A DNA stretch of 34,313 nt from a virus. This document shows positions 5,037-27,577 of this stretch, in pieces; position 1 is the stretch's first letter, and every line of letters starts with the position of its first letter. The position numbers and the translations under genes are program-made. The stretch covers positions 1-34,313 of the IMG/VR virus record IMGVR_UViG_3300025450_000071; one strand, given 5' to 3'. Below the pieces are notes generated by a model that had not been told where the DNA came from, did no database searches, and saw only the letters and a list, made by a program, of their open reading frames with translations.

Positions 5037-5080
5037 ATATTACACGTTCTACTAATTAGTGCAATATCTATTGTGTTATA
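5037..5080 (-). promoter_or_regulatory. Promoter-like hexamer and dyad between portal and downstream small genes
   Basis: Reading the minus strand, the portal stop region contains TATAAC at 5080-5075, five of six matches to a -10 box. Seven bases later comes a dyad: 5037-5045 pairs with 5059-5067 (ATATTACAC/GTGCAATAT, one G-U pair in RNA, 13-nt loop). Inside it is a perfect 10-bp palindrome, ACTAATTAGT at 5051-5060. A second possible arrangement is TTGCAC, 16 bases, TAATAT within the dyad itself. No convincing -35 box lies upstream of TATAAC. A promoter or operator here is plausible but unproven. Confidence 0.35.
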
Positions 5081-7457
5081 AATCTTCCTTTGGAAGATCT
5101 GGGTGATAATCTCCGCTAATAGCAGGTGCACTGATCGCACTATCTCCACCCATACTGTTGCCACCGGCCATATCAGCGATAGGGTTACCAGTATCTTCAG
5201 GGTTAGTAGGAGTAGGGATCATTGAGCTATCACCGTCAAGAGCATTAGCAAGATGTTGCTTAAATGCCTCTTCGTCAAACTTCTCATAGCTATTGTCAAC
5301 AATAACCTTCATACCAGTAGCAAGCTTCATACGCTTACGCTTCTTCTGCTCAAATGGTACAGCGAACTTCATACGGTCACCGTATTCAACGCGACCACTA
5401 AAGTCATCGTAATCATCTTCGTCCCAACCAGATACGGATGCAGTCTTCTTCTTAGGTCCATTCTTAGGACCCTTCTTAGAAGGCTTAGGTTGGCTCTTAC
5501 GCTGTTCGTAGCTTTCTTCTGGACGTTGACGTTGCTGAGCAGCTTCTTGGTTGATGCTTGGGTATACTTGTGCACCAGCAGCAGCGTCACTGTTGCCTGC
5601 GGCATTACCAGTCATATTGGGTGCGCTAGGTGGAGCTACAAGACCAGCCATAGCACCTGGGGCAAGCTGTGCACCAAGCGATGGGTCTTCCATCATCGCT
5701 AGGTAGGCCTGGTATTCCTGTACATATTCTGGTGGTACTGGCAATTGCAGAACCATCAAACGGTTGAACAGTTCCTTCTTGAATTGCTGTTCAGCAACAA
5801 CCGTCTTAATCTTCTCTTCCTTACGTGCATCAATCTCGTCATCGAAGTCGATTGGGATATTGACAGCAAGTGTGCTGAGGGAGATGGGGAAGCCTGAGGC
5901 GCTGAGCTGCTGGAGGAACCCACGCTCAACTGTCTCATCTCTGAGGTTCATCGAACGGAATCTTACCTCTGGAATGGCCAGCTTGGGTCGTTCTTCAACA
6001 TATTCAGCACCAGTCTCTTCATCAACCATGAGAACAGTTTCCATAACAGGTACCATTTGGCCACCCACGTTACGCATCTCATAGTGACCTTGTCTTTCTG
6101 CTACTGGCTCCATACGGGAACGGATAAACTTCTCGATCTTGTGCTGGTAAGTACTAAGCATCTGAGTAATAAGCTCTCGGTTCAAAGCACCTGAAGCATA
6201 GGTACCACCCTGGCCACCCTGAATAAGGTCAGCACCGATACCGAATACACCCATGAGGTTTGTCTGTACACGCATGAAATCTGTGTCAAGACGAGGCATG
6301 CTTTCACGTCCAAAGGCGTTCTGGATCTGCAAACCGTGGTGGTATGTCATCAGACGGAAGTCTGAGTTAATAGCCATGGCCAAGTCGTCACGCAAAGACT
6401 GGAGCTCCATAGCATCTGGGATCCATGGACCGTCCTGGTCTACGTCAGGAAGTCCCAAGGTAGCAAGGATAAGGGGAGAATACAGACGGTCAGCAATAGC
6501 GTCTTGAGCGGAGTTGAGGGACTCCTCAAGCATAAGAGTGCGAAAGGCACGAAGAAGAATAGGAGTACCATGTTCGCTCCACGGGTTGGTAGAGAACTTG
6601 ATCTGCTTCATGATTACATCAGAAACAGGGATTTCCTTATCTTGTCTAGCCCAAGCCACAACGTCTGGATAGAGCTGCATAAGCATTGCATACTCTTGTG
6701 GAGGATCACGACGTTCGATAAGACGCTTGATCTCTTCAGGTACCTTAACGTGGAACTGGTATGTTCTAAGAGCACGGTTCTTAGCGACGATAACGTCGTT
6801 AGGGTTGATGATCTCATCTTCTTCCCATGCACCAATACCATCGTGCCAAGAACCCATGGCGAACACTTCACCAACGGTCCAGTGCTCACGACCAAGGTCA
6901 TAGAGGAAGTCTTGGTAATTAAGACCATCAAAGAACAACTCATTATAGAAGTCAGAGATGCGCTTGTCGGGGTGTACTAGCTCGATGTCCAGCAAGGGGA
7001 AACGAGTATAGATGTCAATAAGACCAGGTACCAAGTGGTGAGTGGTGTAAAGAAGGCGAGCCCAGTCACGTATCTTACGAGTCTGCTCATCTGGGTCTTC
7101 CATGTTGAACCACCACGTGCGCTCACGCCAGTATTCAAATGGGTCGTGTAGCTTAGGAAGTGCCCACTGGGCATCTGATCCTGTAGCAGCAGCAGTTCTG
7201 CGGTTAGACGTTCTAGCCATGCCGTTCTCAGCAAGGAAGTCAGAACCTAACTTATTAAGACGTTGTCTACCCTCTGGAGGTCCACCCATTGCAGTAGCCA
7301 TTGGACCAATGTCATTAAGCATTGATCCTGGCGTAGAAGCCCTATTGAGCATGTCACGTGCAGCGACACGCCCAGCAATAGGGTTCTTAGGAAGGGTGAT
7401 ACCAGATGTCTTCATGCGGCTAAATTCCGCAGAAGCACTCCAGTCGTTGGTAGCCAT
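5076..7457 (-). CDS. Portal protein
   Basis: 793-aa soluble protein of the size and character of large-phage portal proteins. Features are an N-terminal disordered part, a Trp/Tyr-rich segment near 105-150 (FEYWRERTWWFNMEDPDE), a central alpha/beta core with HLVPGLIDIYTRFP and NDVIVAKN-like strands, a long helical stem region, and a disordered C-terminus rich in Pro, Gln, Ser and Lys. Portals form the dodecameric ring at the capsid vertex through which DNA enters. I chose the ATG at 7457; the TTG one codon earlier is less likely. The position before the protease and scaffold candidate supports the call. The family is inferred from length, core pattern and gene order; no single catalytic motif exists for portals. 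Confidence 0.75.
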   Translation of the reverse strand: MATNDWSASAEFSRMKTSGITLPKNPIAGRVAARDMLNRASTPGSMLNDIGPMATAMGGPPEGRQRLNKLGSDFLAENGMARTSNRRTAAATGSDAQWALPKLHDPFEYWRERTWWFNMEDPDEQTRKIRDWARLLYTTHHLVPGLIDIYTRFPLLDIELVHPDKRISDFYNELFFDGLNYQDFLYDLGREHWTVGEVFAMGSWHDGIGAWEEDEIINPNDVIVAKNRALRTYQFHVKVPEEIKRLIERRDPPQEYAMLMQLYPDVVAWARQDKEIPVSDVIMKQIKFSTNPWSEHGTPILLRAFRTLMLEESLNSAQDAIADRLYSPLILATLGLPDVDQDGPWIPDAMELQSLRDDLAMAINSDFRLMTYHHGLQIQNAFGRESMPRLDTDFMRVQTNLMGVFGIGADLIQGGQGGTYASGALNRELITQMLSTYQHKIEKFIRSRMEPVAERQGHYEMRNVGGQMVPVMETVLMVDEETGAEYVEERPKLAIPEVRFRSMNLRDETVERGFLQQLSASGFPISLSTLAVNIPIDFDDEIDARKEEKIKTVVAEQQFKKELFNRLMVLQLPVPPEYVQEYQAYLAMMEDPSLGAQLAPGAMAGLVAPPSAPNMTGNAAGNSDAAAGAQVYPSINQEAAQQRQRPEESYEQRKSQPKPSKKGPKNGPKKKTASVSGWDEDDYDDFSGRVEYGDRMKFAVPFEQKKRKRMKLATGMKVIVDNSYEKFDEEAFKQHLANALDGDSSMIPTPTNPEDTGNPIADMAGGNSMGGDSAISAPAISGDYHPDLPKEDL

Positions 7458-7469
7458 CAATTAGTCTTT

Positions 7470-7652
7470 CTATAGCCCGCATCCGCAAGACTCAATGCCA
7501 GGGATTGCTTGGCAACCACATGCATAGTTGACGCTTCGGGTAGACTTAATGATACCACCAGATTTGTTCTGAATGATAGGGTTTCCGTTAAAATCAAAGT
7601 TGGCACCAACGCGGCGGATAGATGCCTGTCTAATGTTTTGCTGTCTTTCCAT
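7470..7652 (-). CDS. Small cysteine-ended protein of unknown function
   Basis: 60 aa, beginning MERQQNIRQASIRR and ending with closely spaced cysteines (ACGCQAIPG, then SCGCGL). The ATG at 7652 is preceded by an excellent AAGGAT site. It lies between the large structural protein and the portal. Four cysteines near the end could bind one zinc ion. A longer open frame at 7457-7732 overlaps it but lacks this ribosome-binding site and reads like a shadow. I do not recognise the family. Confidence 0.6.
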   Translation of the reverse strand: MERQQNIRQASIRRVGANFDFNGNPIIQNKSGGIIKSTRSVNYACGCQAIPGIESCGCGL

Positions 7653-7661
7653 AAGTTATCC

Positions 7662-10600
7662 TTAAGCTTGAGGTTCGTTCCAAGAGATACGACCCAAAAG
7701 CTGCACACCAACACCATTAAGGTTCTGGGCAACTAGAGTCAATGTATCTGGACCATCTGGGTAGATGTTCTTATCAGGTGTAGCGAGTGCTGCAACAGTA
7801 GAAGTACCACCGTTGAGGACACTGTTACCAAGGTCGCGGACACCGGCAACGTTAACTTCCTGTGTGGTGTCTACAAAGAAACCACCGGTAACTTCACCAG
7901 CAGCCAAACCACTAGCAACCGTAACACCATTGGGTACAGAAGAGTAGTCAGCAATCTGGCTAAGCGATGAGTTCGGGCTGTTTGTACCAGCGACGACGTT
8001 TGTCCACTGTGGCAATGTTCCACCATTGATAAGCTGTGGCACGCCATTCAAGTAAGCCTTGATAAGCACGTTACCGGCACCAACCCCCTGTGTACCAGTA
8101 ACCGTAACTGACACGTCAAGCGTCTGCAGCTGCAACTGAACTCGGTTAGCCAGTTCGTGTGATCCAAGGATAGAACTTGTTTGGCTGTTGTCAACGCTAG
8201 GGGCAATACGAATCGACATCAGAGCCTTGGTCTGACCAGAAGCCAACGTAATTGGAGTAGTCTGACCATAGGTGAACAAAAGGTTGGCGTCAGGCGAGAA
8301 ACCACCATCCATTGTTACTGCAGTACCCCAGTGGCTAAAGTATGGGCTGTGCGTAGGCATTGCCAACTCAACCGTAGTGGGTGCGGTAGCAGAGTATGAG
8401 AATGCAGTTCCTGCAAGTCCCATAGCCTGCACTGGAACCGTTGCGCTGGCGTTAGTCGATACAGAAGCATTGCTAAACGTAATGAAGTTACCGCTGATGG
8501 AAGCAACGTATGTGTTGTCGGGGAACAACGTCGGTGCAGTAACCTTAGAACCAATTGCAACACCGGTAATAGTTCCGCTACCAATTGGGCTACCAGACGT
8601 TAAAGAAAGCGTCAGGGAAGCAGGGGTAGCAATACCACGTGTCAAACCACCGAAGCTGCTAGCAGTTACAGTTGTGTAATTAACGTATTCAACACCAGTC
8701 GTGGCGTTCTTGATCGCAAGAGTGCCTGATGCAGGGAATGCGCTATTGCCAGCTGGATTCAGCGTATTGTTAACATAGATTGTGGTGTCTGTTGCACCGA
8801 TGCCAGATGTGGTAGTGGTAATTGGTGGGATCGTAGATGTTTCGTAACGACCCGGCAAGTTACCAGAGCGCATGTAGGCAGTGGTGTTGATGTTGTTGTT
8901 AGCCAGCTTGTGGCAGAACATGATGTTACCATCAGTAGTTCTCAGGCCCCAACGCACGAAACCAGCTCCGTACCACGAGTAGTCAAGGTACCACATCTGC
9001 ATCTTGGTAAGGTCAAGCTTGTAACCGCTAGGTCCAGTTCCATCAAGTTTGTCGATGTTCCATTGCGACTGTGGCACACGGTTGTCGACAGTGGCTGTAA
9101 CAGTCACGTAGTTGGCAGTAATACCACGGTAAGCAGGGCTAATGGTGATCTGCGTATCGCTAGCGATATCAGTAACACGGTAAGAGCTACCACGGATAAC
9201 AATGTACTGACCAGGGGTCAGCTGCTTGCTAAAGATGGTTGGGAAATTGCCATCGGTTGCAGTAACCGTTGTGCTACCGTTTGTTACAGTTGCACGACCA
9301 GCAACCTGCTTAATTGAGCTACGAAGAACAGCGTAAAGCTGCTGACCATCGTACTCGAAGAACATGCCATTTTCTTGGTTGAAAAGACCCATTCTCTGTA
9401 CAGCACCGTACCAACCATTAACTGTGCAAATAAAGTTTGCAGGATAATCAGATGGTGAAGTATTGCCAAGAGTACCAGTAGCAGTAATAGTGAACTGAGT
9501 GGCATTAAGAATGTTGGCAATAGGGTATGTGCCGTTGTAACCACTAGTAATTACACCAGCGATATTTACACTTGTACCAGGGGTAAGGTTGTGCTGTTCA
9601 CGAGTTGTTACGGTGATCGTCGAACCAGGAGTTGTGCCAGTGGCAGAAATACCATCAACAGTGAATGCAGTGTTAAGGATCGTACCGGTGGCCATTTCAA
9701 GACCCTTACCAGACTGGTAGTGGAAGTTACGACGGGTTTGACGAATAGCAGATTGGTGGTTGCTCAAGCTTTGTGGTCCGAACAGCACACCACCGTCAAA
9801 TGGACGCTGAGCGAACAAAGATTGGTTGCGAGGAGTGATTGAACCACCGGTAGGAGTACCACCAGGTGCGCTCAATGCATAGTAGGTAAGACCGCTAGCA
9901 CTGGTAATACCAGTTACATAGAAGTTACCATTCGCAGCAGATTGGCTAGTACCGCTAACGCTAATTTCATTACCAATGCTCAGGCCATGAGGAACGGTTG
10001 TCGTTACAGTAATCAAGTTACTTGAGTTGGTAAACGTTGGTGTACCGCCGATAGCAGCACCGGTGTAGTACTGCTGCTGCCAGACCTGAGTCTTAAATGG
10101 GTCAAAGAAACCCGAAGTACCACTAGGAGTACCAAATGTGTTTACTGTCTTGGCAGAGTAAGTGAACGAGTTTGTGCCGCTTGTTTCTACGATGAAGTTA
10201 CCGTTGGCTGGAGCGAAGAAAGCATCTTGCACAGAGAATGGTGTGCCTGTGGCAAGGCCGCCACCACTTGTAAGAACAGTCACTGTCTTGCTGTTGGCAC
10301 TCATAGTCATACCAGTTACGGTAAGACCATTAGTAGCCAGCGAAATTGGTGGGTACATGTTATAACCAGCAGGGTGCCAGTTAGTTGTGCCGAGAGCTTC
10401 CCACTTAGAAGTCTGGTTACCATACTCAAAGTCGGTGTCAATCATCGACTGAGGTGTAGAGACGCGTTGCTTACCCACTGGGTCGTAAAGCTCTTCCACA
10501 GGAACTGTGCGTTGAGCATATTCATCAACTGTGATAGTGATCTTGTCGGTGGCAAGCATGCCAGATGTACCGCCGTTGAACACAACAGTAGTTACACCCT

Positions 10601-10826
10601 TGCTAGAAGAAGTAGGAAGATTAGTAGTGCTAGAAACCTGGTTAGAAACTGTAGCAGTAAAACCAGCTAGAGTAAATACAGGGTCACCAATTTTAAACAA
10701 TGTTACGCCACGTGTAGTGTTTACTACGGATACAAGACGTTCCTGTGGAATATACTGGTTGATTACGAGAGTTGAAGTACTCGGTGTAAATACGTAATTA
10801 TCGTAGTACGATGTTGTTTGTGCCAT
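7662..10826 (-). CDS. Large virion structural protein with repeated beta modules
   Basis: 1054 aa, rich in Thr, Ser, Gly, Val and Asn. At least four related beta modules of about 60-70 residues can be picked out at about 166-228, 262-318, 388-450 and 508-565. Each follows the rough plan strand, GL..G..v, NG.f.V, T.ft. Between them lie a conserved-looking RRNFHYQSGKG at 365-375 and a Trp/Tyr-rich part at about 590-662 with LDYSWYGAG and AYMRSGNLPGRYE. I recall similar segments in uncharacterised structural proteins of T4-like and marine phages. The ATG at 10826 has an AAGGA site overlapping the previous stop. Likely a tail, neck or fibre component exposed on the virion. The exact role is not visible. 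Confidence 0.65.
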   Translation of the reverse strand: MAQTTSYYDNYVFTPSTSTLVINQYIPQERLVSVVNTTRGVTLFKIGDPVFTLAGFTATVSNQVSSTTNLPTSSSKGVTTVVFNGGTSGMLATDKITITVDEYAQRTVPVEELYDPVGKQRVSTPQSMIDTDFEYGNQTSKWEALGTTNWHPAGYNMYPPISLATNGLTVTGMTMSANSKTVTVLTSGGGLATGTPFSVQDAFFAPANGNFIVETSGTNSFTYSAKTVNTFGTPSGTSGFFDPFKTQVWQQQYYTGAAIGGTPTFTNSSNLITVTTTVPHGLSIGNEISVSGTSQSAANGNFYVTGITSASGLTYYALSAPGGTPTGGSITPRNQSLFAQRPFDGGVLFGPQSLSNHQSAIRQTRRNFHYQSGKGLEMATGTILNTAFTVDGISATGTTPGSTITVTTREQHNLTPGTSVNIAGVITSGYNGTYPIANILNATQFTITATGTLGNTSPSDYPANFICTVNGWYGAVQRMGLFNQENGMFFEYDGQQLYAVLRSSIKQVAGRATVTNGSTTVTATDGNFPTIFSKQLTPGQYIVIRGSSYRVTDIASDTQITISPAYRGITANYVTVTATVDNRVPQSQWNIDKLDGTGPSGYKLDLTKMQMWYLDYSWYGAGFVRWGLRTTDGNIMFCHKLANNNINTTAYMRSGNLPGRYETSTIPPITTTTSGIGATDTTIYVNNTLNPAGNSAFPASGTLAIKNATTGVEYVNYTTVTASSFGGLTRGIATPASLTLSLTSGSPIGSGTITGVAIGSKVTAPTLFPDNTYVASISGNFITFSNASVSTNASATVPVQAMGLAGTAFSYSATAPTTVELAMPTHSPYFSHWGTAVTMDGGFSPDANLLFTYGQTTPITLASGQTKALMSIRIAPSVDNSQTSSILGSHELANRVQLQLQTLDVSVTVTGTQGVGAGNVLIKAYLNGVPQLINGGTLPQWTNVVAGTNSPNSSLSQIADYSSVPNGVTVASGLAAGEVTGGFFVDTTQEVNVAGVRDLGNSVLNGGTSTVAALATPDKNIYPDGPDTLTLVAQNLNGVGVQLLGRISWNEPQA

Positions 10827-21241: not shown

Positions 21242-21246
21242 TTATG

Positions 21247-21318
21247 CTCCCAGGGTAGGGATCGAACCTACGACCGAGCGATTAACAGTCGCTTGCTCTG
21301 CCGCTGAGCTACCTGGGA
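21247..21318 (-). tRNA. tRNA-Asn (anticodon GTT)
   Basis: Acceptor TCCCAGG pairs with CCTGGGA. The anticodon stem AGCGA/TCGCT carries loop CTGTTAA, anticodon GTT. The T arm is GTAGG TTCGATC CCTAC. No CCA is encoded. It begins 8 nt after the stop of the cupin gene, so the four tRNAs probably derive from the same transcript as the sugar operon. Confidence 0.9.
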
Positions 21319-21326
21319 TTGTAAAA

Positions 21327-21683
21327 CTAGTCTCCTTTGACCACTCTGATACTATCATAGTCGAAGTGTTGGGTAGAGAACTCAAATACGCGTGAATTCT
21401 CTAGACCAATGATTCTGTGACGTAAACCGACAGGTACGTGGAAAAGGTCTCCCGCATTAAGCACCTTTTCCTGTGCGAGCTCGATATCGTCTGTCTCACC
21501 GTAAAGTACGATGACCTTACCGTTCTCTACGTAGAAGGTTTCGTCCTTGATGTTGTGATAATGGTAAGAAAGCTTCTTACCCTTATTCATGTGCAAGATC
21601 TTGGCGCAGTACTTCTCAGAGTTACAAAGAATCTCTTCATAACCCCAGCCCTTTTCTACAAATTCCTTATTCAAAGAAGTCAT
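21327..21683 (-). CDS. Cupin-fold sugar-operon protein, possible sugar-phosphate isomerase
   Basis: 118-aa single-domain cupin. The N-terminus has EKGWGYEEIL, similar to the KPWGxE element of type II mannose-6-phosphate isomerase domains. Metal-binding residues follow in SYHYHNIKDETFYV (HxH and E) and in a later FHVPVGLRHRI (H). It overlaps the preceding HAD gene by 17 nt. I chose the ATG at 21683; a GTG one codon earlier is slightly better spaced from the AAAGGA site. Cupins in sugar clusters act as isomerases, epimerases or oxygen-independent tailoring enzymes. Because no GmhA-type isomerase is present, this protein is a candidate for the aldose/ketose step, but that is only an inference. 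Confidence 0.7.
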   Translation of the reverse strand: MTSLNKEFVEKGWGYEEILCNSEKYCAKILHMNKGKKLSYHYHNIKDETFYVENGKVIVLYGETDDIELAQEKVLNAGDLFHVPVGLRHRIIGLENSRVFEFSTQHFDYDSIRVVKGD

Positions 21684-21984
21684 CACTGTTTATTCCTTTG
21701 TCATCGATGTAAAAATCAGCAGAAGGTTTACCCATGATTAGATGATGGTACTTACAACCCCATTGCTTAAGCTGACGCTCCGTAATGTCACGGAAAAGTA
21801 TTTCTACAAGCTTTGGGTCATTATTTGTCCTATGCATACCTCGAGCCGTAAAATAAACGACTGTATGACCCTCTGAATAAAGCTTGTTTATCTGATCAAT
21901 ACGTTCTTGAACAGGCAGTGCATTTTCATACTTACCATCAGTAAGTGTGCAGATGGTGCCATCAATATCTACAACGTATCTCAT
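21667..21984 (-). CDS. HAD-superfamily phosphatase, capsule-type
   Basis: 105 aa. The N-terminal DIDGTICTL is HAD motif I with nucleophile D6 and acid D8. VVYFTARG is motif II (Thr). The C-terminal KPSADFYIDDKGI gives the motif III Lys and motif IV Asp pair. At this size it has no cap domain, as in the small phosphatases often found in capsule and LPS loci. In this operon it would most simply fill the GmhB role, removing the 7-phosphate from heptose-1,7-bisphosphate, although it is not a classical GmhB by length. It overlaps the nucleotidyltransferase gene by 4 nt. Confidence 0.8.
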   Translation of the reverse strand: MRYVVDIDGTICTLTDGKYENALPVQERIDQINKLYSEGHTVVYFTARGMHRTNNDPKLVEILFRDITERQLKQWGCKYHHLIMGKPSADFYIDDKGINSDDFFE

Positions 21985-22370
21985 CGTTCTAAGATCCTAG
22001 TGGTTGAATAAGGCTCAAGTCTAGTGAAATAATCAATCTTCTTTGCGTACTCTTTACCAGGGAAGTCCTTGCCGAACCAGTCAGCACCAGCAAACCAGAT
22101 ATCTGGGGATAAAGCCTTGACGATATTGATCAGTTCTTCATCTGAGTCAAAGAGTAGCGTTTGATCAACATACTTAAAAGCATCAATAACAAATTGTCTA
22201 TCATACTGATTATGGAAAGGTCGATCAGAGCCTTTCTTCTCTTTTACACGCCTATCAGTGTCGATAGCAACAGTTAGGGTGTCACCATGCGATTTGGCAT
22301 GTTTTAGAAGTGCTACATGGCCTTTATGAATGACATCAAACGTGCCAGTTAAAAAGATCTTCTTATCCAT
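21981..22370 (-). CDS. hldC: Heptose-1-phosphate nucleotidyltransferase (HldE C-domain/RfaE2-like)
   Basis: 129-aa single-domain cytidylyltransferase-fold enzyme. GTFDVIHKGHVALL contains the HxGH motif (H15, H18) that binds the nucleotide phosphates. The C-terminal YSTTRILER corresponds to the (S/T)STxI element of the family. Such enzymes attach AMP or CMP to a sugar or alditol phosphate. Because the kinase and epimerase next to it match the heptose pathway, ADP- (or another NDP-) heptose is the likely product; glycerol-3-phosphate cytidylyltransferase is the main alternative. In Escherichia coli this domain is fused to the kinase; here the two are separate genes with the epimerase between them. 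It overlaps the epimerase gene by 8 nt. Confidence 0.75.
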   Translation of the reverse strand: MDKKIFLTGTFDVIHKGHVALLKHAKSHGDTLTVAIDTDRRVKEKKGSDRPFHNQYDRQFVIDAFKYVDQTLLFDSDEELINIVKALSPDIWFAGADWFGKDFPGKEYAKKIDYFTRLEPYSTTRILER

Positions 22371-23148
22371 TTAGATACTCGTCTACAGTCTTGAATTTGT
22401 AGTCACCCCACTCTGGCTTAGCACAGGTATACGTCTGATACTTGCCAACCAGGTGTTCTGGGAACGGTACATATTCTATAGCACCGTTATAAAGGTATGC
22501 AACTGACTCAGCAACGTCTTTAAAGCTAATTGGGTTGCTTGTGCCAAGATCATAGATGCCAGAAGGCTTATCGTTGTTGAGAACGATTTCAACAAGGTCA
22601 TCAACGCAGACAAAGTCTCTCTTGAAGTTCTCTGAGCCTTCAAACAGCTTTAGAGAGCCTGTCTCTTTAATTTGGGCTGAGAACTTGCTAACAGGGCTTG
22701 CCTGGTCACCTTTACGGCCTTCATAATCACCATATACGTTGAAGTAACGAAAACCTTGGATAAGAGAGAACTTATCCATGTTATCTTGCACCCAGTAGTC
22801 AACTGTCAGCTTTGACATAGCATATTGGTTCTTAGGGTTAGGAATACCCTGCAAATCGCCATAAACGGAAGCAGAAGAAGCATACTTAACAGGGATACCA
22901 AAAGAGATAGCAATCTCAAAGAGGTCTATCGTGTATTCAACGTTCCAGGCATACAGTTTCTTAACATCCTTTTCAGTAGTGCTGGAGATAGCACCCTGGT
23001 GCAAAATAAGATCAACTTTATCCCATTCTTTAAAGTTATAAAGGAAGTGATAAGCATCTTCTTTATCAATAGGCAATAAAGGCTTGTTAGAAAGAACCTT
23101 GCTAAAGTTTCTACCAATGAAACCTTCTGAACCAGTCAAAATGATCAT
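22363..23148 (-). CDS. hldD: NDP-heptose 6-epimerase-like SDR enzyme (HldD-like)
   Basis: 261-aa extended short-chain dehydrogenase. The NAD(P) motif is GSEGFIG (6-12), and the catalytic pair is Y109xxxK113 (YAMSK). Several stretches closely match bacterial HldD: HQGAISSTTE, SSASVYG, GFRYFNVYG, LFEGSENFKRDFV, SGIYDLGT and EYVPFPEHLVGKYQ. HldD converts ADP-D-glycero-D-manno-heptose to the L-glycero form by oxidation and reduction at C6. The protein is about 50 residues shorter than the E. coli enzyme, missing pieces between motifs rather than a catalytic residue. It overlaps the kinase by 4 nt. It may act on a related NDP-heptose rather than exactly the LPS substrate. Confidence 0.85.
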   Translation of the reverse strand: MIILTGSEGFIGRNFSKVLSNKPLLPIDKEDAYHFLYNFKEWDKVDLILHQGAISSTTEKDVKKLYAWNVEYTIDLFEIAISFGIPVKYASSASVYGDLQGIPNPKNQYAMSKLTVDYWVQDNMDKFSLIQGFRYFNVYGDYEGRKGDQASPVSKFSAQIKETGSLKLFEGSENFKRDFVCVDDLVEIVLNNDKPSGIYDLGTSNPISFKDVAESVAYLYNGAIEYVPFPEHLVGKYQTYTCAKPEWGDYKFKTVDEYLNG

Positions 23149-23873
23149 ATCGTTGTAACCCCTCTATGCTTTACCACTTCAGAAGCGCATTTATTAGCAT
23201 ACTCAATGCTTTTGATGATATTGCCGCAATTAGCATACTCAACGACAAGTGCTGCCATGAAAGCATCGCCTGCACCTGAGGAGTCCTTGACTTCTACCTT
23301 GTCAACGTGATAACGGTTACCGTTGTACTCGCAACCATCTCCACCCATCGTATGGATGATCTTCTTCTTGAAAGATTCTGTAACTTTGGGGTCAGAGTTC
23401 TTGTATTCGTAATCGTTGATCTTAATGATGAAAGCCTTTTTGGCCCACTTCCCTAGCTTCTTCTTAGTATCGAGGAATACACGTGGGTGTGACTTACAAA
23501 TATCTTTGATGTCGTCTTCTGTTAGATAACCTTTGTTATAGTCAGAAATAACTACAATGTCATATTCGCTGTAATCGATATCGTTTTTAAACCTACCATA
23601 GTTTGGCTCTGTATCGACTCTAATAAACATGTGGTTAGTTGCTTCATGAACGTATCTTGTCTTAGTAATAGACCGCCAATTATGGTTGGTTCTAATGTTG
23701 ACGTCATCCGCAAACTTTTTGATGTTGTTTAACACGTTCAGTGCCATACCAGGATTCTTTACCTCATGCATGGCGTTTAGCACAGGTACTGGAATATCGG
23801 GTGCAAGACGCATTGCATCACAATAAACAAATACGTCCATGCAACTTTCACCTATTACTAAAATTTTAGTCAT
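23145..23873 (-). CDS. hldA: PfkB-family heptose-7-phosphate kinase (HldE N-domain/RfaE1-like)
   Basis: 242-aa ribokinase-fold protein. It matches the heptose kinase domain of HldE in order: GESCMDVF at the start, LAPDIPVPVLN, SITKTRYV followed by FIRVDTEP, VVISDYNKGYL, DTKKK, the catalytic DSSGAGDAF (GAGD 200-203) and the C-terminal VVKHRGVTTI. It would phosphorylate D-glycero-D-manno-heptose-7-phosphate at C1 to give the 1,7-bisphosphate. It is shorter than the usual 315 residues, with the central lid strands reduced. Its start overlaps the transketolase-C stop by one base (TAATG). A different hexose or heptose phosphate substrate remains possible. Confidence 0.8.
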   Translation of the reverse strand: MTKILVIGESCMDVFVYCDAMRLAPDIPVPVLNAMHEVKNPGMALNVLNNIKKFADDVNIRTNHNWRSITKTRYVHEATNHMFIRVDTEPNYGRFKNDIDYSEYDIVVISDYNKGYLTEDDIKDICKSHPRVFLDTKKKLGKWAKKAFIIKINDYEYKNSDPKVTESFKKKIIHTMGGDGCEYNGNRYHVDKVEVKDSSGAGDAFMAALVVEYANCGNIIKSIEYANKCASEVVKHRGVTTI

Positions 23874-24355
23874 TAGAAAATAGGTAAGCCATCTTTTTTA
23901 AGATAGATCATGGCAGGGGCCTTGATCAAATATGCATCAATCATAGCCTTTTCTGTAGCTTCACGGCTAGTAGGAAAGTAACTTTGTACATTTTTGAATA
24001 CCGTAGCTAAGCGTTCAGGGTTGAGCGGACGGTGAGTAGGACCATGCGTTGGATAATCAGAATAACCAACCAACATAACAGGCAAGTTTTGTTCATCAAT
24101 ATCAATTTTGACTTGCTCATAAGGTCGTTCGATTACAAAAGGAGTAATTGAATAAACTACTGGACGAAACCCATCGATAGCAAGACCAGCAGCCAAGCTA
24201 GTAATTGATTGCTCAGTGAGACCAAGGTTGAAGAACCGTTCAGGAAACTTTTCTTTGAACTCAGTCATCTCTTGCTCTACGTCGCCTGTAATCAATACGA
24301 TGCGATCATCTTTTTCAGCGAGCTTAACGATTGTCTTACCGAATGCTACTCTCAT
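23873..24355 (-). CDS. Transketolase pyrimidine-binding subunit (split enzyme, C half)
   Basis: 160 aa corresponding to the pyrimidine-binding domain of transketolase. GLTEQ (E48) is the conserved Glu that activates thiamine diphosphate. VIERPYEQVKIDI and GPTHRP match the following family elements (FxxRAxxQ, GxTH). The usual third C-terminal domain of about 130 residues is missing: the gene ends soon after the last strand of the Pyr domain. The ATG at 24355 is chosen because it overlaps the stop of the N half by 4 nt. Together with the next gene it should form the thiamine-dependent active site. It would move two-carbon units between sugar phosphates, supplying sedoheptulose-7-phosphate or a related ketose. 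Confidence 0.85.
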   Translation of the reverse strand: MRVAFGKTIVKLAEKDDRIVLITGDVEQEMTEFKEKFPERFFNLGLTEQSITSLAAGLAIDGFRPVVYSITPFVIERPYEQVKIDIDEQNLPVMLVGYSDYPTHGPTHRPLNPERLATVFKNVQSYFPTSREATEKAMIDAYLIKAPAMIYLKKDGLPIF

Positions 24356-25077
24356 GCCAGTTCCTCCAATGCTTGCTTTTCTAGGTCTCCACCTAGCCAA
24401 TTTGAGTGCCATTTAGGTTGGTTTTCCATAAAGCTTACACCCTTACCCTTGATTGTGTTTGCAACAATCAAAGTAGGAGATACTGCAGCTTCAAAATTGA
24501 TGTTGATAAGATCATCGTTGTGACCATCAATTTCATGCACTTCCCAACCAGCAGCTTGTGCAGCAGCAATAAGAGCACGGTCTACGGGCATGATTTCGTC
24601 AACGTACCCAGAACCCTGGATCTTATTGTTATCTACGATAACAACCAAGTTATTGAGCTTTAGGCGTGCAGCAATAAGAATTGATTCCCAAGTAGTGCCT
24701 TCTTGGCATTCGCCATCACCCATAAGAACAAACACTTTTTCATTTGAGTTGTTGAGCTTACGAGCAAGAGCCATCCCCATAGACACTGGGAAACCATGTC
24801 CCATGCTACCTGCGGTGCAATAAATGCCATTCTCAGGCTCATAATGAGGGTGACCTTCAAGGGTGGGGTTATAACCTTGTTCACGCAAAAGCACATAGTA
24901 TGACCAGCAGCTGTGCCCCTTGCTCAAAACAAAACGGTCATTCTTTCCCATGATTTTATCAAAAAGATTGATCAGAATTTCAGTACAACTAAAGCTACCG
25001 CCATAATGATAACCACCATTAGCTTTGCTAATCTCAATAGCATCTCTGCGTACTTGCTTTGATCTTTCGTTTAACAT
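24352..25077 (-). CDS. Transketolase thiamine-diphosphate-binding subunit (split enzyme, N half)
   Basis: 241 aa corresponding to the PP domain of transketolase. SKGH (52-55), the GSMGHG loop (90-95), and the thiamine diphosphate/Mg motif GDGE (120-123) ending in NN (150-151) are all present. IKGKGVSFMEN near the C-terminus is the typical last element of this domain. The ATG at 25077 overlaps the methyltransferase stop by one base. Split transketolases occur in archaea and in some capsule or nucleotide-sugar loci. The two halves here total about 400 residues against about 660 for the full enzyme. The substrate is inferred from the heptose genes downstream. Confidence 0.88.
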   Translation of the reverse strand: MLNERSKQVRRDAIEISKANGGYHYGGSFSCTEILINLFDKIMGKNDRFVLSKGHSCWSYYVLLREQGYNPTLEGHPHYEPENGIYCTAGSMGHGFPVSMGMALARKLNNSNEKVFVLMGDGECQEGTTWESILIAARLKLNNLVVIVDNNKIQGSGYVDEIMPVDRALIAAAQAAGWEVHEIDGHNDDLININFEAAVSPTLIVANTIKGKGVSFMENQPKWHSNWLGGDLEKQALEELA

Positions 25078-25643
25078 TAATTGGCCTTTCCAGATAGATT
25101 GCAAATTAGAATTTTTTTATCTTCATCGTAATCAAACTCACATGCGTTGTCATACTCTTTAATATAGTTAATTAATTTTTGCTTTGTAGTTTCTTCATCA
25201 CCAAAATCAAGAGCCATACCACTAGAAGAATCACCAAGCAGATCAATATCATCAATCAGAATAGTGTGAGCTTTGCGAGGGCGAGCAAAGATTACGTTTA
25301 ACTCATCCATCAAAGGAACTGCTGGGTGTTCTACATTCGGGTCACCGCTTGCGCTGTGAGCATCGAGCCAGAAATCTAGCGGGACATCATAAGGCTCAAT
25401 CATCTCTGATAATTTTTCTTTTGAGTCGCCTAGAAATAACACTACTCTGTTGTCATTATCAAACTTGCTACAACAATTATCGTAGAAAGATTTATTGAAC
25501 TCAACAGTTATAACCTTTTCATAACCAAGACCAAGTGCTATTTCTACTGTATAGCCATGTTGTGTACCAGTTTCTACAAAGATATTATTTCTCTTATATT
25601 TAGAGAACATCAATGTCATTGCTTCTGTGCTTCTATCTGCCAT
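25077..25643 (-). CDS. Class I SAM-dependent methyltransferase, sugar-operon type
   Basis: 188 aa. The N-terminal strand and loop VETGTQHGYT (23-32) is a motif I variant (E/DxGxxxG), followed by VITVEF, the acidic end of strand 2. FWLDAHSASG in the middle and ILIDDID later resemble the FkbM/Methyltransf_24/cephalosporin hydroxylase-like group, which often sits in polysaccharide loci. It is likely to methylate a sugar hydroxyl, but the acceptor cannot be read from sequence. It overlaps its neighbours by one base on both sides. The C-terminal third is acidic and may be less well conserved. Confidence 0.7.
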   Translation of the reverse strand: MADRSTEAMTLMFSKYKRNNIFVETGTQHGYTVEIALGLGYEKVITVEFNKSFYDNCCSKFDNDNRVVLFLGDSKEKLSEMIEPYDVPLDFWLDAHSASGDPNVEHPAVPLMDELNVIFARPRKAHTILIDDIDLLGDSSSGMALDFGDEETTKQKLINYIKEYDNACEFDYDEDKKILICNLSGKAN

Positions 25644-26653
25644 TATTCCATCTCAATCATTATTCTACCGGCAATGCCGCTTCTAAGTGTATCAAATGCT
25701 TCATTTACTTCGTCAAGTTTATATCTGTGAGTAATGAACTCATCAATATAAAGCTTCCCAGCCTTCTCGAGCTTAACATAACGCAAGATATCGTTAGAAG
25801 GATCTGTCTTGCCACCCTGGGTAGCCTTGATACTAAGACCATTACCATTAAAGAAGCTGAGTGCATTGACGATTTCAAGTGACGTTCCTGGCTTGGGTTG
25901 ACCCACAAGAATCATTCGGCCATTGTTAGATAGATAGCCAAAGCTCTTCTTAATAACATCGACGTTTCCAGTCGTATCAATAACAACGTCTACTTTACCT
26001 TCAAACTCTGTTTCTGAAGTGTTGTAAAAGAAGTCAGCACCAGCCATGAATGAAAGGTCGCGCTTGCTTTCATTGTTGTCAATAGCAACAATTGGGCTAA
26101 GGCTACGCATAGCTGCACCTTGGATGAGGTTAAGCCCTACACCACCCGTACCGACAACTGCAACGCTTTCACCAAACTTAAAATCGCACTCATTGTCGAT
26201 AATACCTAGTGCGGTAGTCAAACTGCATCCAAGGAGCGCAGCGAGGTCATTAGGGGTCTCTGAAGGGACTGTAGTGAGTCGGTTCTCTGACACGATAGCC
26301 CACTGAGCAAGAGTATTTACCTTGCCACTACTAAAAGTCTTGTCACCAAGGGTGTACTGAGGAAACGCAGCATCGATACCAGTACCTGGTCGCCAGTGCA
26401 TAACAACCTTGTCACCTACTTTAACAGTGGTTACTCCAGGGCCAATGTCTTCTACAATGCCACAACCCTCATGACCCATAAGGTGAGGAAGGAACTTGCC
26501 ATTACCCTTGTTGCCATTGATCTCGTGTAGTTGTGAGCCACAGATACCGCTGACAAGGACACGAACCTGTACTTGACCCACTTGGAGCTCAGTAAGGCCA
26601 ACATCTTCAATAGAAAGAGGAGCGTTGAGCTCTTTGAGAACGGCAGCCTTCAT
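25643..26653 (-). CDS. Zinc-type alcohol/sugar dehydrogenase of the MDR superfamily
   Basis: 336-aa medium-chain dehydrogenase. Catalytic zinc ligands are visible as C38 (GICGSQ), H61-E62 (GHEGCG) and C143 (LGCSLTTALG). The nucleotide motif is GTGGVG (168-173). The loop that normally carries four cysteines for the structural zinc (after about residue 88) contains none, so only the catalytic zinc is expected. The acidic residue after the GxGxxG strand (VAIDNNESKRD) favours NAD. I recall related dehydrogenases beside split transketolase genes in capsule-type loci. It might oxidise a sugar or sugar-nucleotide hydroxyl, but the substrate is unknown. Its ATG overlaps the glycosyltransferase stop by one base. 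Confidence 0.85.
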   Translation of the reverse strand: MKAAVLKELNAPLSIEDVGLTELQVGQVQVRVLVSGICGSQLHEINGNKGNGKFLPHLMGHEGCGIVEDIGPGVTTVKVGDKVVMHWRPGTGIDAAFPQYTLGDKTFSSGKVNTLAQWAIVSENRLTTVPSETPNDLAALLGCSLTTALGIIDNECDFKFGESVAVVGTGGVGLNLIQGAAMRSLSPIVAIDNNESKRDLSFMAGADFFYNTSETEFEGKVDVVIDTTGNVDVIKKSFGYLSNNGRMILVGQPKPGTSLEIVNALSFFNGNGLSIKATQGGKTDPSNDILRYVKLEKAGKLYIDEFITHRYKLDEVNEAFDTLRSGIAGRIMIEME

Positions 26654-27501
26654 TAGATCAACTCGTACAATGACTTGACGGTGCTGAACTTCTTATTGAT
26701 GTCAAATGTTCTAGCCATATCACGGTAAGGAACATTTGTATTAACTCGGTCAAGCAGAGAGATGAACTCACCAACCGTTTCCATGCTCCACTTGTTAACA
26801 GCAGCAATGAAAGGTGCATTTGGTACGCCAACAACTGCCTTACAACGCTTAGCTAGCTTACCAATATCAACCAAAGTCAAATTGTGATCTTGAGTGCTGC
26901 GGTAGCCTTCCACCTTGACAGTAGTAATGACTTTCTTACCCTCATCGGTCAAGTATTGCAGCAATGCAGCAAAGTTCTTGTCTTGTTCTTCTCTAGACAT
27001 AAGAAGGACTGGGCTAACAGGGTATCCATTAATTACTAGGCAGTCAAACTCTTCGCCATCGAGTACATCCTCGGCAAAGCACTCTTCATCAAGTACAACA
27101 TCATCAATAGAGTTGAATGGCTTGTTTAGGTGAGGCAAGTTGTACTGGTGCAGGTAGTTACCCATTTCATATACCCACATTGAGTAGCTGCTAAGGGTGT
27201 TGTCCTGCTTCGAGTAGTGGATAGGATCATAAATGCTATCGCCAAGCAAAGCGTGGCACCACAAGTCAATTGAATAACGTGGGTGTGGTGCATCAATAAA
27301 GCTTACGTTTGTATCTTGGATCAGCTCAACAAGTTGAGAACGATACTGAGCAGGAATTAAGATGTTGCATTTAATTTGTTTGTTGTTTTCACACAACTTC
27401 TTCAAAACATGCAATGCAACAATGCAATCACCATGGCCTTTATCACAATGGAAGTAAAGGTCGTTAGTCATTAACATATCTAAGTTAATTGATTTATTCA
27501 T
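26653..27501 (-). CDS. Glycosyltransferase-like protein, GT9/heptosyltransferase type
   Basis: 282 aa. The N-terminus has a Gly-rich strand-loop (HCDKGHGDCIVALHVLKKL) like the first element of GT-B enzymes. The middle has a Rossmann-like strand (DCLVINGYPVSPVLL). The C-terminal part LTLVDIGKLAKRCKAVVGVPNAPFIAAV matches the GT9 pattern of a Leu-rich helix followed by a strand and a donor-binding loop. This suggests transfer of a heptose-like sugar, fitting the operon. Similarity is by pattern only and a non-catalytic relative is possible. The ATG at 27501 lies 2 nt after the tRNA-Asp 3' end, and the tRNA's AAGG forms the only visible ribosome-binding site. A second ATG at 27471 has no better site. 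Confidence 0.55.
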   Translation of the reverse strand: MNKSINLDMLMTNDLYFHCDKGHGDCIVALHVLKKLCENNKQIKCNILIPAQYRSQLVELIQDTNVSFIDAPHPRYSIDLWCHALLGDSIYDPIHYSKQDNTLSSYSMWVYEMGNYLHQYNLPHLNKPFNSIDDVVLDEECFAEDVLDGEEFDCLVINGYPVSPVLLMSREEQDKNFAALLQYLTDEGKKVITTVKVEGYRSTQDHNLTLVDIGKLAKRCKAVVGVPNAPFIAAVNKWSMETVGEFISLLDRVNTNVPYRDMARTFDINKKFSTVKSLYELI

Positions 27502-27503
27502 AG

Positions 27504-27577
27504 CGACCTTGATGGGACTCGAACCCACGACCCCCACCGTGACAGGGTGGTGCTCTAACCAACTGAGCTACAAGGCC
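27504..27577 (-). tRNA. tRNA-Asp (anticodon GTC)
   Basis: Acceptor GGCCTTG pairs with CAAGGTC (one G-U pair). The anticodon stem CCACC/GGTGG carries loop CTGTCAC, anticodon GTC. The T arm is GTGGG TTCGAGT CCCAT (one mismatch or G-U pair at the stem end). No CCA is encoded. It lies between the holin-like gene and the first sugar gene, 10 nt after the holin-like stop. Confidence 0.9.

Follow-up and report, generated by a model that had tools for sequence, protein, structure and literature searches.

Organization of the ten-gene operon

The DNA analyzed here is a 34,313-nucleotide stretch from a virus (IMG/VR record IMGVR_UViG_3300025450_000071, positions 1 to 34,313; hereafter referred to as the window), and its minus strand carries an operon of ten open reading frames (ORFs) spanning positions 27501-21327. 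All nine junctions in the operon are overlaps, measuring 1, 1, 1, 4, 1, 4, 8, 4 and 17 nt between consecutive genes from gene 1 to gene 10 (with inferred start codons), and the ORF coordinates thus bear out the chain of ten genes linked by overlaps of 1, 4, 8 or 17 nt that an earlier note on this DNA had described. Our analysis suggests that the operon is probably an accessory nucleotide-heptose cassette, in which a cupin would stand in for GmhA as the sedoheptulose-7-phosphate (S7P) isomerase.

Comparison of the ten proteins with the Pfam, PHROG and NCBIfam profile libraries (E<=0.01) identified a zinc-binding MDR dehydrogenase (Zn-ADH; gene 2, 25643..26653, phrog_2640), the thiamine-diphosphate (ThDP) and pyrimidine-binding domains of a transketolase on two separate chains (gene 4, 24352..25077, Transketolase_N; gene 5, 23873..24355, Transket_pyr), a short, HldE-kinase-like PfkB kinase (gene 6, 23145..23873, phrog_8133), an HldD-type epimerase (gene 7, 22363..23148, Epimerase), a HldE-C/TagD-like nucleotidyltransferase (NT; gene 8, 21981..22370, CTP_transf_like, phrog_7878), a short EcbF/BcbF-like HAD protein (gene 9, 21667..21984) and a cupin with a Cupin_2 match (gene 10, 21327..21683). 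These matches agree with the split transketolase, zinc-type dehydrogenase and cupin that the earlier note had recognized by eye, and they support its proposal that a phage carries a heptose-activation cassette of kinase, phosphatase, NT and HldD-type epimerase. When this gene order was sought in phages, other virus records proved to carry these families in matching order; three of them (L006-L008) are identical, and the L247 and L251 groups have diverged. Since families and order both recur, chance cannot account for the run of ORFs.

A predicted nucleotide-heptose pathway

The synthesis of ADP-heptose involves an isomerase (GmhA), a kinase, a phosphatase, an NT and an epimerase, and the isomerase and phosphatase steps are the only ones that the ADP- and GDP-heptose routes have in common. 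As judged from their sequences, genes 6 to 10 most likely encode a pathway of the ADP-heptose type. The firmest assignment of the set is gene 7, whose best match in the Protein Data Bank (PDB) is E. coli HldD (1eq2, 158 bits), with both the Tyr140 and Lys178 positions, which we take to be the catalytic residues of HldD, present and aligned. The GAGD kinase of the earlier note is likewise recovered in gene 6, where the PfkB motif (SSGAGD) aligns to the same motif of 4e84.

The best NCBIfam matches of the kinase, epimerase and NT are, respectively, rfaE_dom_I (TIGR02198; 96.6 bits, cut-off 345), heptose_epim (TIGR02197; 204.6 bits, cut-off 274.6) and rfaE_dom_II (TIGR02199; 99.8 bits, cut-off 181.5), and the kinase is some 70 residues shorter than the rfaE_dom_I model. 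Since all three proteins score under the curated equivalog cut-offs, we refer to them as HldE-like and HldD-like only. These scores would suit a five-gene set that makes another nucleotide sugar and no heptose, as would the nearest solved structure of the NT, a glycerol-3-phosphate cytidylyltransferase, and the additional match of the kinase to sulfofructose kinase. Against the TagD-type model, gene 8 scores 73.7 bits, less than against rfaE_dom_II. We nevertheless regard this alternative as very unlikely, given the HldD-type epimerase with both catalytic positions, the recurrence of the same cupin in HddA/HddC-like sets and the fusion of archaeal cupin homologs to proteins that reach, or narrowly miss, the HldE-kinase and GmhB cut-offs (see below). 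For gene 9, the phosphatase proposed in the earlier note is upheld by a HAD/EcbF-like match, but this match is weak (EcbF-BcbF 45.6 bits and HAD-IIIA 19.7 bits, both under cut-off), and the GmhB model TIGR00213 is not among the matches of gene 9 at E<=0.01.

In the pathway that we propose, the gene 10 cupin would convert S7P to heptose-7-phosphate instead of GmhA, the gene 6 kinase would act as a heptose-7-phosphate C1 kinase, the gene 9 HAD protein would remove the 7-phosphate from the resulting heptose bisphosphate, the gene 8 NT would attach the nucleotide, probably AMP to give ADP-heptose, and the gene 7 enzyme would epimerize C6. The remaining genes, 1 to 5, probably tailor or transfer the sugar. 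The earlier note had already proposed the C1 phosphorylation, dephosphorylation, activation and epimerization steps, all of which find matching families here, but it passed over the missing GmhA isomerase and listed the cupin without a role. Compared with the bacterial ADP-L-glycero-D-manno-heptose pathway (GmhA, HldE, GmhB, HldD), the window shares homologs of the kinase, NT and epimerase, but has a cupin for GmhA and an EcbF-like short HAD for GmhB, and its kinase and NT are separate short proteins. No GmhA/SIS-fold isomerase was found among the ten operon genes in the Pfam, PHROG and NCBIfam scans, nor any SIS isomerase in virus record G002 (131.9 kb), in which the cassette proteins used as queries are present in identical form. 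More broadly, PF13580 (SIS/GmhA) scored above cut-off in one of 30 virus records (two at E<=0.001) and in none of five complete cyanophage genomes; the exception, virus record G022, encodes a SIS protein and shows no cupin match in its loci examined.

Conserved residues and fold of the cupin

The gene 10 protein scores 18.8 bits against the type II mannose-6-phosphate isomerase family (PF01050), under the Pfam gathering score of 23.6. An alignment of 87 of the 88 listed cupins (L214 was excluded, and the window cupin took the place of the L006 copy) revealed nine positions that are invariant in all 87 sequences (W13, G14, H41, H43, K46, G55, H89, E101 and D110), with E48 present in at least 90% of them. 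The profile built from these cupins aligns along most of its length with the D-lyxose isomerase 2y0o (E 1.2e-9), pairing cupin H41, H43, E48, H89, K46 and E101 with H69, H71, E82, H137, K80 and E150 of 2y0o. The window cupin and 2y0o thereby have metal-ligand, Lys and Glu positions in common, the ligands of 2y0o presumably being His69, His71, Glu82 and His137. The AlphaFold model of the cupin has a predicted local distance difference test score (pLDDT) of 96.6, and its first Foldseek match is a D-lyxose isomerase with D-mannose.

Interconversion of D-mannose and D-fructose is the same manno-type aldose-ketose exchange as that of heptose-7-phosphate and S7P. The cupin D-lyxose/D-mannose isomerases (2y0o; 7nzo-7nzq) and the archaeal phosphomannose isomerases (7zvm, 7zvy) have the same fold as the window cupin and carry out the manno-type chemistry predicted for it. 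The window cupin differs from them in its low identity (~20-28%), in being shorter than the lyxose isomerases and in its predicted substrate, a heptulose phosphate. Our literature search, which covered few subscription journals or preprints, found no paper in which a cupin was credited with S7P isomerization.

In a cupin tree (107 rows, 113 columns) few forks are resolved, and the heptose-context cupins are clustered without forming one clade; their context requires 21 changes versus 35.0 after shuffling (0/500 shuffles as low), a clustering that near-copies favor.

Gene neighborhoods of viral and cellular cupins

Gene neighborhoods associate the viral cupins with heptose-type genes. Among the matches listed in a viral scan with the cupin as query (the best 80 of 600, so that the tally covers the cupins most similar to the query), 71 distinct cupins had kinase plus NT within 6 kb in 45 cases, HAD in 54, HddA plus HddC in three and a SIS gene in none. 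For 100 distinct viral cupins, again among matches listed, the corresponding figures were 66, 77, six and zero, and the SIS model detected all six GmhA loci fetched as a control (L258-L260, L264-L266).

Bellamy and SynMITS9220M01 retain the cupin beside an HddA-like kinase (279 and 287 bits); in Bellamy it lies between this kinase and an NT that has HddC as its best, weak match (62.5 bits), and a GDP-mannose-dehydratase-like gene is also present. Phages of the Bellamy type thus have a cupin and HAD of the window's families together with HddA-/HddC-like genes, whereas the window has an HldE-type kinase and NT. The HAD is retained alongside the cupin in Bellamy and in the GDP-type loci L179, L185 and L225. 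The cupin therefore persists when the phage kinase and NT change from the ADP- to the GDP-heptose type, which supports its placement in the isomerase step common to both routes.

Separately, at L215 a NeuB-like gene recognized by eye (7092-7958) adjoins a cupin and a HAD belonging to the two families analyzed here, and this pair may serve another phosphosugar pathway. GDP-mannose-dehydratase-like genes are also often found downstream of the cupin in metagenome-assembled genomes (MAGs) of Binatia and Deltaproteobacteria (L099-L126, L153).

Fusion to heptose enzymes and exclusion of gmhA

Archaeal cupin homologs occur as fusions with proteins whose scores equal, or fall slightly short of, the cut-offs for HldE kinase and GmhB. 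In Woesearchaeota MAGs, one ORF combines an HldE kinase with the cupin (L157) and another joins GmhB, cupin and adenylyltransferase (L160); among 103 genomes of that archaeal order, the kinase-cupin fusion occurs in 11 and the GmhB-cupin-NT fusion in a twelfth (G041). Of the order's 31 HldE1-positive genomes, a strong cupin (>=80 bits) is present in 17, gmhA in eight, neither in six and both in none (Fisher 4e-4, a value that overstates the case because the genomes are related drafts and their kinship is ignored). A similar distribution is seen in the bacterial order of G034, where 12 of 13 genomes are HldE1-positive and 11 of these have gmhA, in eight cases beside or fused to HldE1, while the twelfth, G034 itself (L134), has the order's only strong cupin, adjoining HldE1. 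Pooling both orders gives 43 kinase-positive genomes, of which 18 have a strong cupin, 19 gmhA, six neither and none both. Such exclusion, seen in two orders, is what would be expected if one gene had taken the other's place. Together with the conserved residues, these distributions indicate that the cupin very probably replaces GmhA as S7P isomerase.

Directly upstream of the kinase-cupin fusion and GmhB at L157 lies a gene (7464-8627) whose product resembles heptosyltransferases (65 bits to TIGR02193, below its cut-off), and the locus might possibly specify an archaeal heptose glycan.

Observations weighing against the isomerase assignment

Several observations weigh against this assignment. 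Among PDB sequences, the cupin profile matches the quercetin dioxygenase YxaG best (E 2e-10), although this match covers a shorter stretch than that of 2y0o (profile positions 29-86) and lacks the Lys. Structural comparison gives CapF, KdgF and CENP-C cupins scores similar to those of the isomerases; VIA-align Z values tie at ~14.6-15.6 for CapF, Pac13, KdgF and D-lyxose isomerases, so the choice of function was not based on fold. No kinase, NT, HddA, HddC or SIS gene is found near 20 of the 100 viral cupins, some of these loci being incomplete. In the cellular genomes (tallied without L157 and L160, whose fusion ORFs are best labeled kinase or GmhB and are counted separately as fusions), 60 of 75 distinct cupins lack a kinase, NT or HddA nearby, and a GDP-mannose-dehydratase-like gene lies within 2.5 kb in 22 of 64 non-heptose cellular cupin loci versus none of 11 heptose-type loci. 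The cupin family hence has other substrates outside heptose sets, and a mannose-6-phosphate isomerase role would suit its non-heptose cellular members.

Nor is the exclusion of gmhA general. Weak cupin matches (43-53 bits) coincide with gmhA in three genomes of the bacterial order, and a gmhA-like TIGR00441 match at E<=1e-5 is present in 13 of 20 cupin-bearing genomes, in one of them above cut-off. Such matches occur despite a heptose-type cupin locus at L094, L096, L097, L111, L130, L162, L087 and L088, with cupin and SIS lying within one cluster at L096. Some of these cupin-bearing contigs look viral, and the cells may have a separate lipopolysaccharide (LPS) pathway. As to possible hosts, in the family of Prochlorococcus record G026 (61 genomes, searched for gmhA and kinase only), 17 genomes have a gmhA-like gene and 14 an HldE kinase, 12 of the latter having both.

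The gmhA-like genes in the 13 cupin-bearing genomes, the bacterial family members that adjoin nucleotide-sugar dehydratases and the presence of CapF-type cupins among the closest folds would all fit a cupin that tailors the nucleotide-heptose, as an epimerase, ketoisomerase or similar, while the host provides the GmhA step. Fusion to early-step enzymes and exclusivity with gmhA in two orders are hard to reconcile with a late tailoring role, as are a cupin that stays in place when the route goes from ADP to GDP type and residues that match an aldose-ketose isomerase, and we judge this explanation improbable. A dioxygenase role, as in the PHROG label "cysteine dioxygenase", was set aside on the basis of the gene neighborhoods and the Lys and Glu positions. 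We accordingly retain replacement of GmhA by the cupin as the favored reading, with a confidence that is good but held short of high because the exclusion is not general and because of the YxaG match.

Relation to known phage gene sets

A tblastn search of 50,697 phage records with the kinase returned 32, comprising 27 Synechococcus, Prochlorococcus or cyanophage records, four marine single-cell records and one faecal phage; with the cupin it returned 35, all cyanophage or marine. One study describes T4-GCs 260, 265, 266, 304, 305, 307 and 308 as functionally linked LPS genes co-occurring in three phages, and leaves unsettled whether such LPS genes are functional or filler DNA (Sullivan, 2010; PMC3037559). 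According to phage annotation, T4-GC 304 corresponds to the NT, 305 to the kinase, 307 to the cupin and 308 to the epimerase. Phages P-SSM2, S-SSM7, S-CAM1, S-CAM3 and Sf-FS3, which carry T4-GC 304-308, resemble the window in having NT, kinase, HAD, cupin and HldD-like epimerase, but their epimerase lies on the opposite strand and the stretches read show no ADH or transketolase match.

Closer in content are cyanophages S-SM2 and P-TIM68, in which Zn-ADH, ThDP enzyme, kinase, HldD-like epimerase, NT, HAD and cupin are clustered as in the window. They differ in their one-chain E1-type ThDP enzyme and more numerous glycosyltransferases, and they belong to another phage group, with late genes in a different order. 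The earlier note had considered a phage with its own S7P source and activation steps unusual, a view that does not hold up against these two phages, with ADH, ThDP enzyme and the five-gene set, or against the publication that had already flagged most of the core in 2010 (PMC3037559). The operon belongs to a known phage gene set, and the cupin as a replacement for GmhA is its new, testable part.

The dehydrogenase and ThDP enzyme

Genes 4 and 5 encode chains of 241 and 160 amino acids that match Transketolase_N (99.5 bits) and Transket_pyr (67.6 bits), and Pfam detects no C-terminal third transketolase domain in either. The earlier note had proposed the split transketolase as the source of S7P for the cassette, which these domains and their adjacency to the heptose genes would favor. 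In line with such a supply, virus record G022 encodes a split transketolase together with a SIS protein, and inspection by eye adds a GHMP kinase and a protein resembling transaldolase. The missing third domain does not fit, and neither do the neighborhoods: across 41 distinct viral split-transketolase loci, the second half is near in 39 and a Zn-dehydrogenase in 33, but a heptose-set gene (kinase, NT, cupin or HAD) in 16. Moreover, a one-chain ThDP enzyme of 381-406 amino acids (E1_dh plus Transket_pyr) fills the slot in L166, S-SM2 and P-TIM68, and an E1-type enzyme takes it in close relatives too. S7P supply by genes 4 and 5 is hence doubtful.

One-chain ThDP enzymes without the third domain lie beside the same dehydrogenase at L166 (4593-5810), L001 (6984-8192) and L002 (7847-8992). 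This interchange of transketolase-type and E1-type enzymes beside one ADH, and the occurrence of the ADH-ThDP pair without heptose genes, would be explained if dehydrogenase and ThDP enzyme formed a module of their own for adding or rearranging a two-carbon unit on the sugar or nucleotide sugar. The substrate of such a module is only conjectured, and the operon lacks the short-chain dehydrogenase seen by eye in several such loci (one confirmed by Pfam), so that we advance this explanation as quite possible but tentative. The ThDP module is best described as a partner of the dehydrogenase, for which S7P supply is one guess and sugar tailoring at least as likely.

The combination of Zn-dehydrogenase and split transketolase, often with a short-chain dehydrogenase, recurs as a phage module mostly without heptose genes (L023, L027, L036, L047, L053). 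The G022 loci (L067, L073) are perhaps another phage S7P-to-heptose set.

Possible significance

Should the cupin prove to be an S7P isomerase, nucleotide-heptose synthesis would have a second, unrelated way of carrying out its first step, and heptose pathways would become recognizable in phages and archaea where an absent gmhA hides or blurs them. Labels in deposited phage genomes would also need correcting: in 11 annotated cyanophage regions the cupin is labeled as nucleotidyltransferase, hypothetical, cupin or adenylyltransferase-related, and phosphoheptose isomerase is a frequent label of the neighboring HAD phosphatase. The purpose of the cyanophage "LPS genes" becomes directly testable, the isomerase step being simple to assay and to complement. 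A broader and frankly speculative scenario is that the cupin represents a new S7P isomerase class in phages, Woesearchaeota and some bacteria, and that the heptose is modified by the ThDP enzyme and Zn-ADH into an undescribed nucleoside diphosphate (NDP)-heptose derivative destined for virions or the host surface, not necessarily for LPS.

Genomic location and remaining genes

The operon lies in a slot between tRNA genes on the same strand. A tRNA-Asp gene (27503..27577) is located one base ahead of its first ATG, and a tRNA-Asn gene (21246..21318) follows just past its end, succeeded by tRNA genes for Ser, Gln and Tyr. Comparison of related phages (L297-L327) shows this slot to be a variable cargo site: the heptose cassette is retained there in the L247 and L251 groups, L300 and L319 have ~3-4 kb with another SDR, L307 and L308 have other content, and the slot in L303 and L309 is under 1 kb with no member of the families tested. 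Because slot content varies in this way among related phages, we regard the heptose operon as accessory cargo.

The virion region of the window (5076-7460 and 7662-10826) appears as a mosaic module, combining a portal closest to Mycobacterium phages (39.7% over 74%) with a large structural protein closest to cyanophages (39%). As these relatives name no host, an LPS role for the sugar cannot be assumed.

Two operon genes have no match in Pfam, PHROG or NCBIfam at E<=0.01, and the labels that the earlier note gave them by eye gained no backing from these scans. Gene 1 (26653..27501, 282 amino acids) had been read as a GT9-like transferase. At E<=10 its best Pfam match is unrelated (E 0.08), as is its one PDB match (E 1.4), and its AlphaFold model has a pLDDT of 42; the GT9 assignment thus finds no support in family scans, PDB-sequence profile search or structure prediction. 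A more distant relative of gene 1 is present in L168 (128.8 bits). For gene 3 (25077..25643), taken as methyltransferase-like, a relaxed threshold yields only an AAA match (E 0.2), and relatives of the gene are found in cyanophage glycan clusters.

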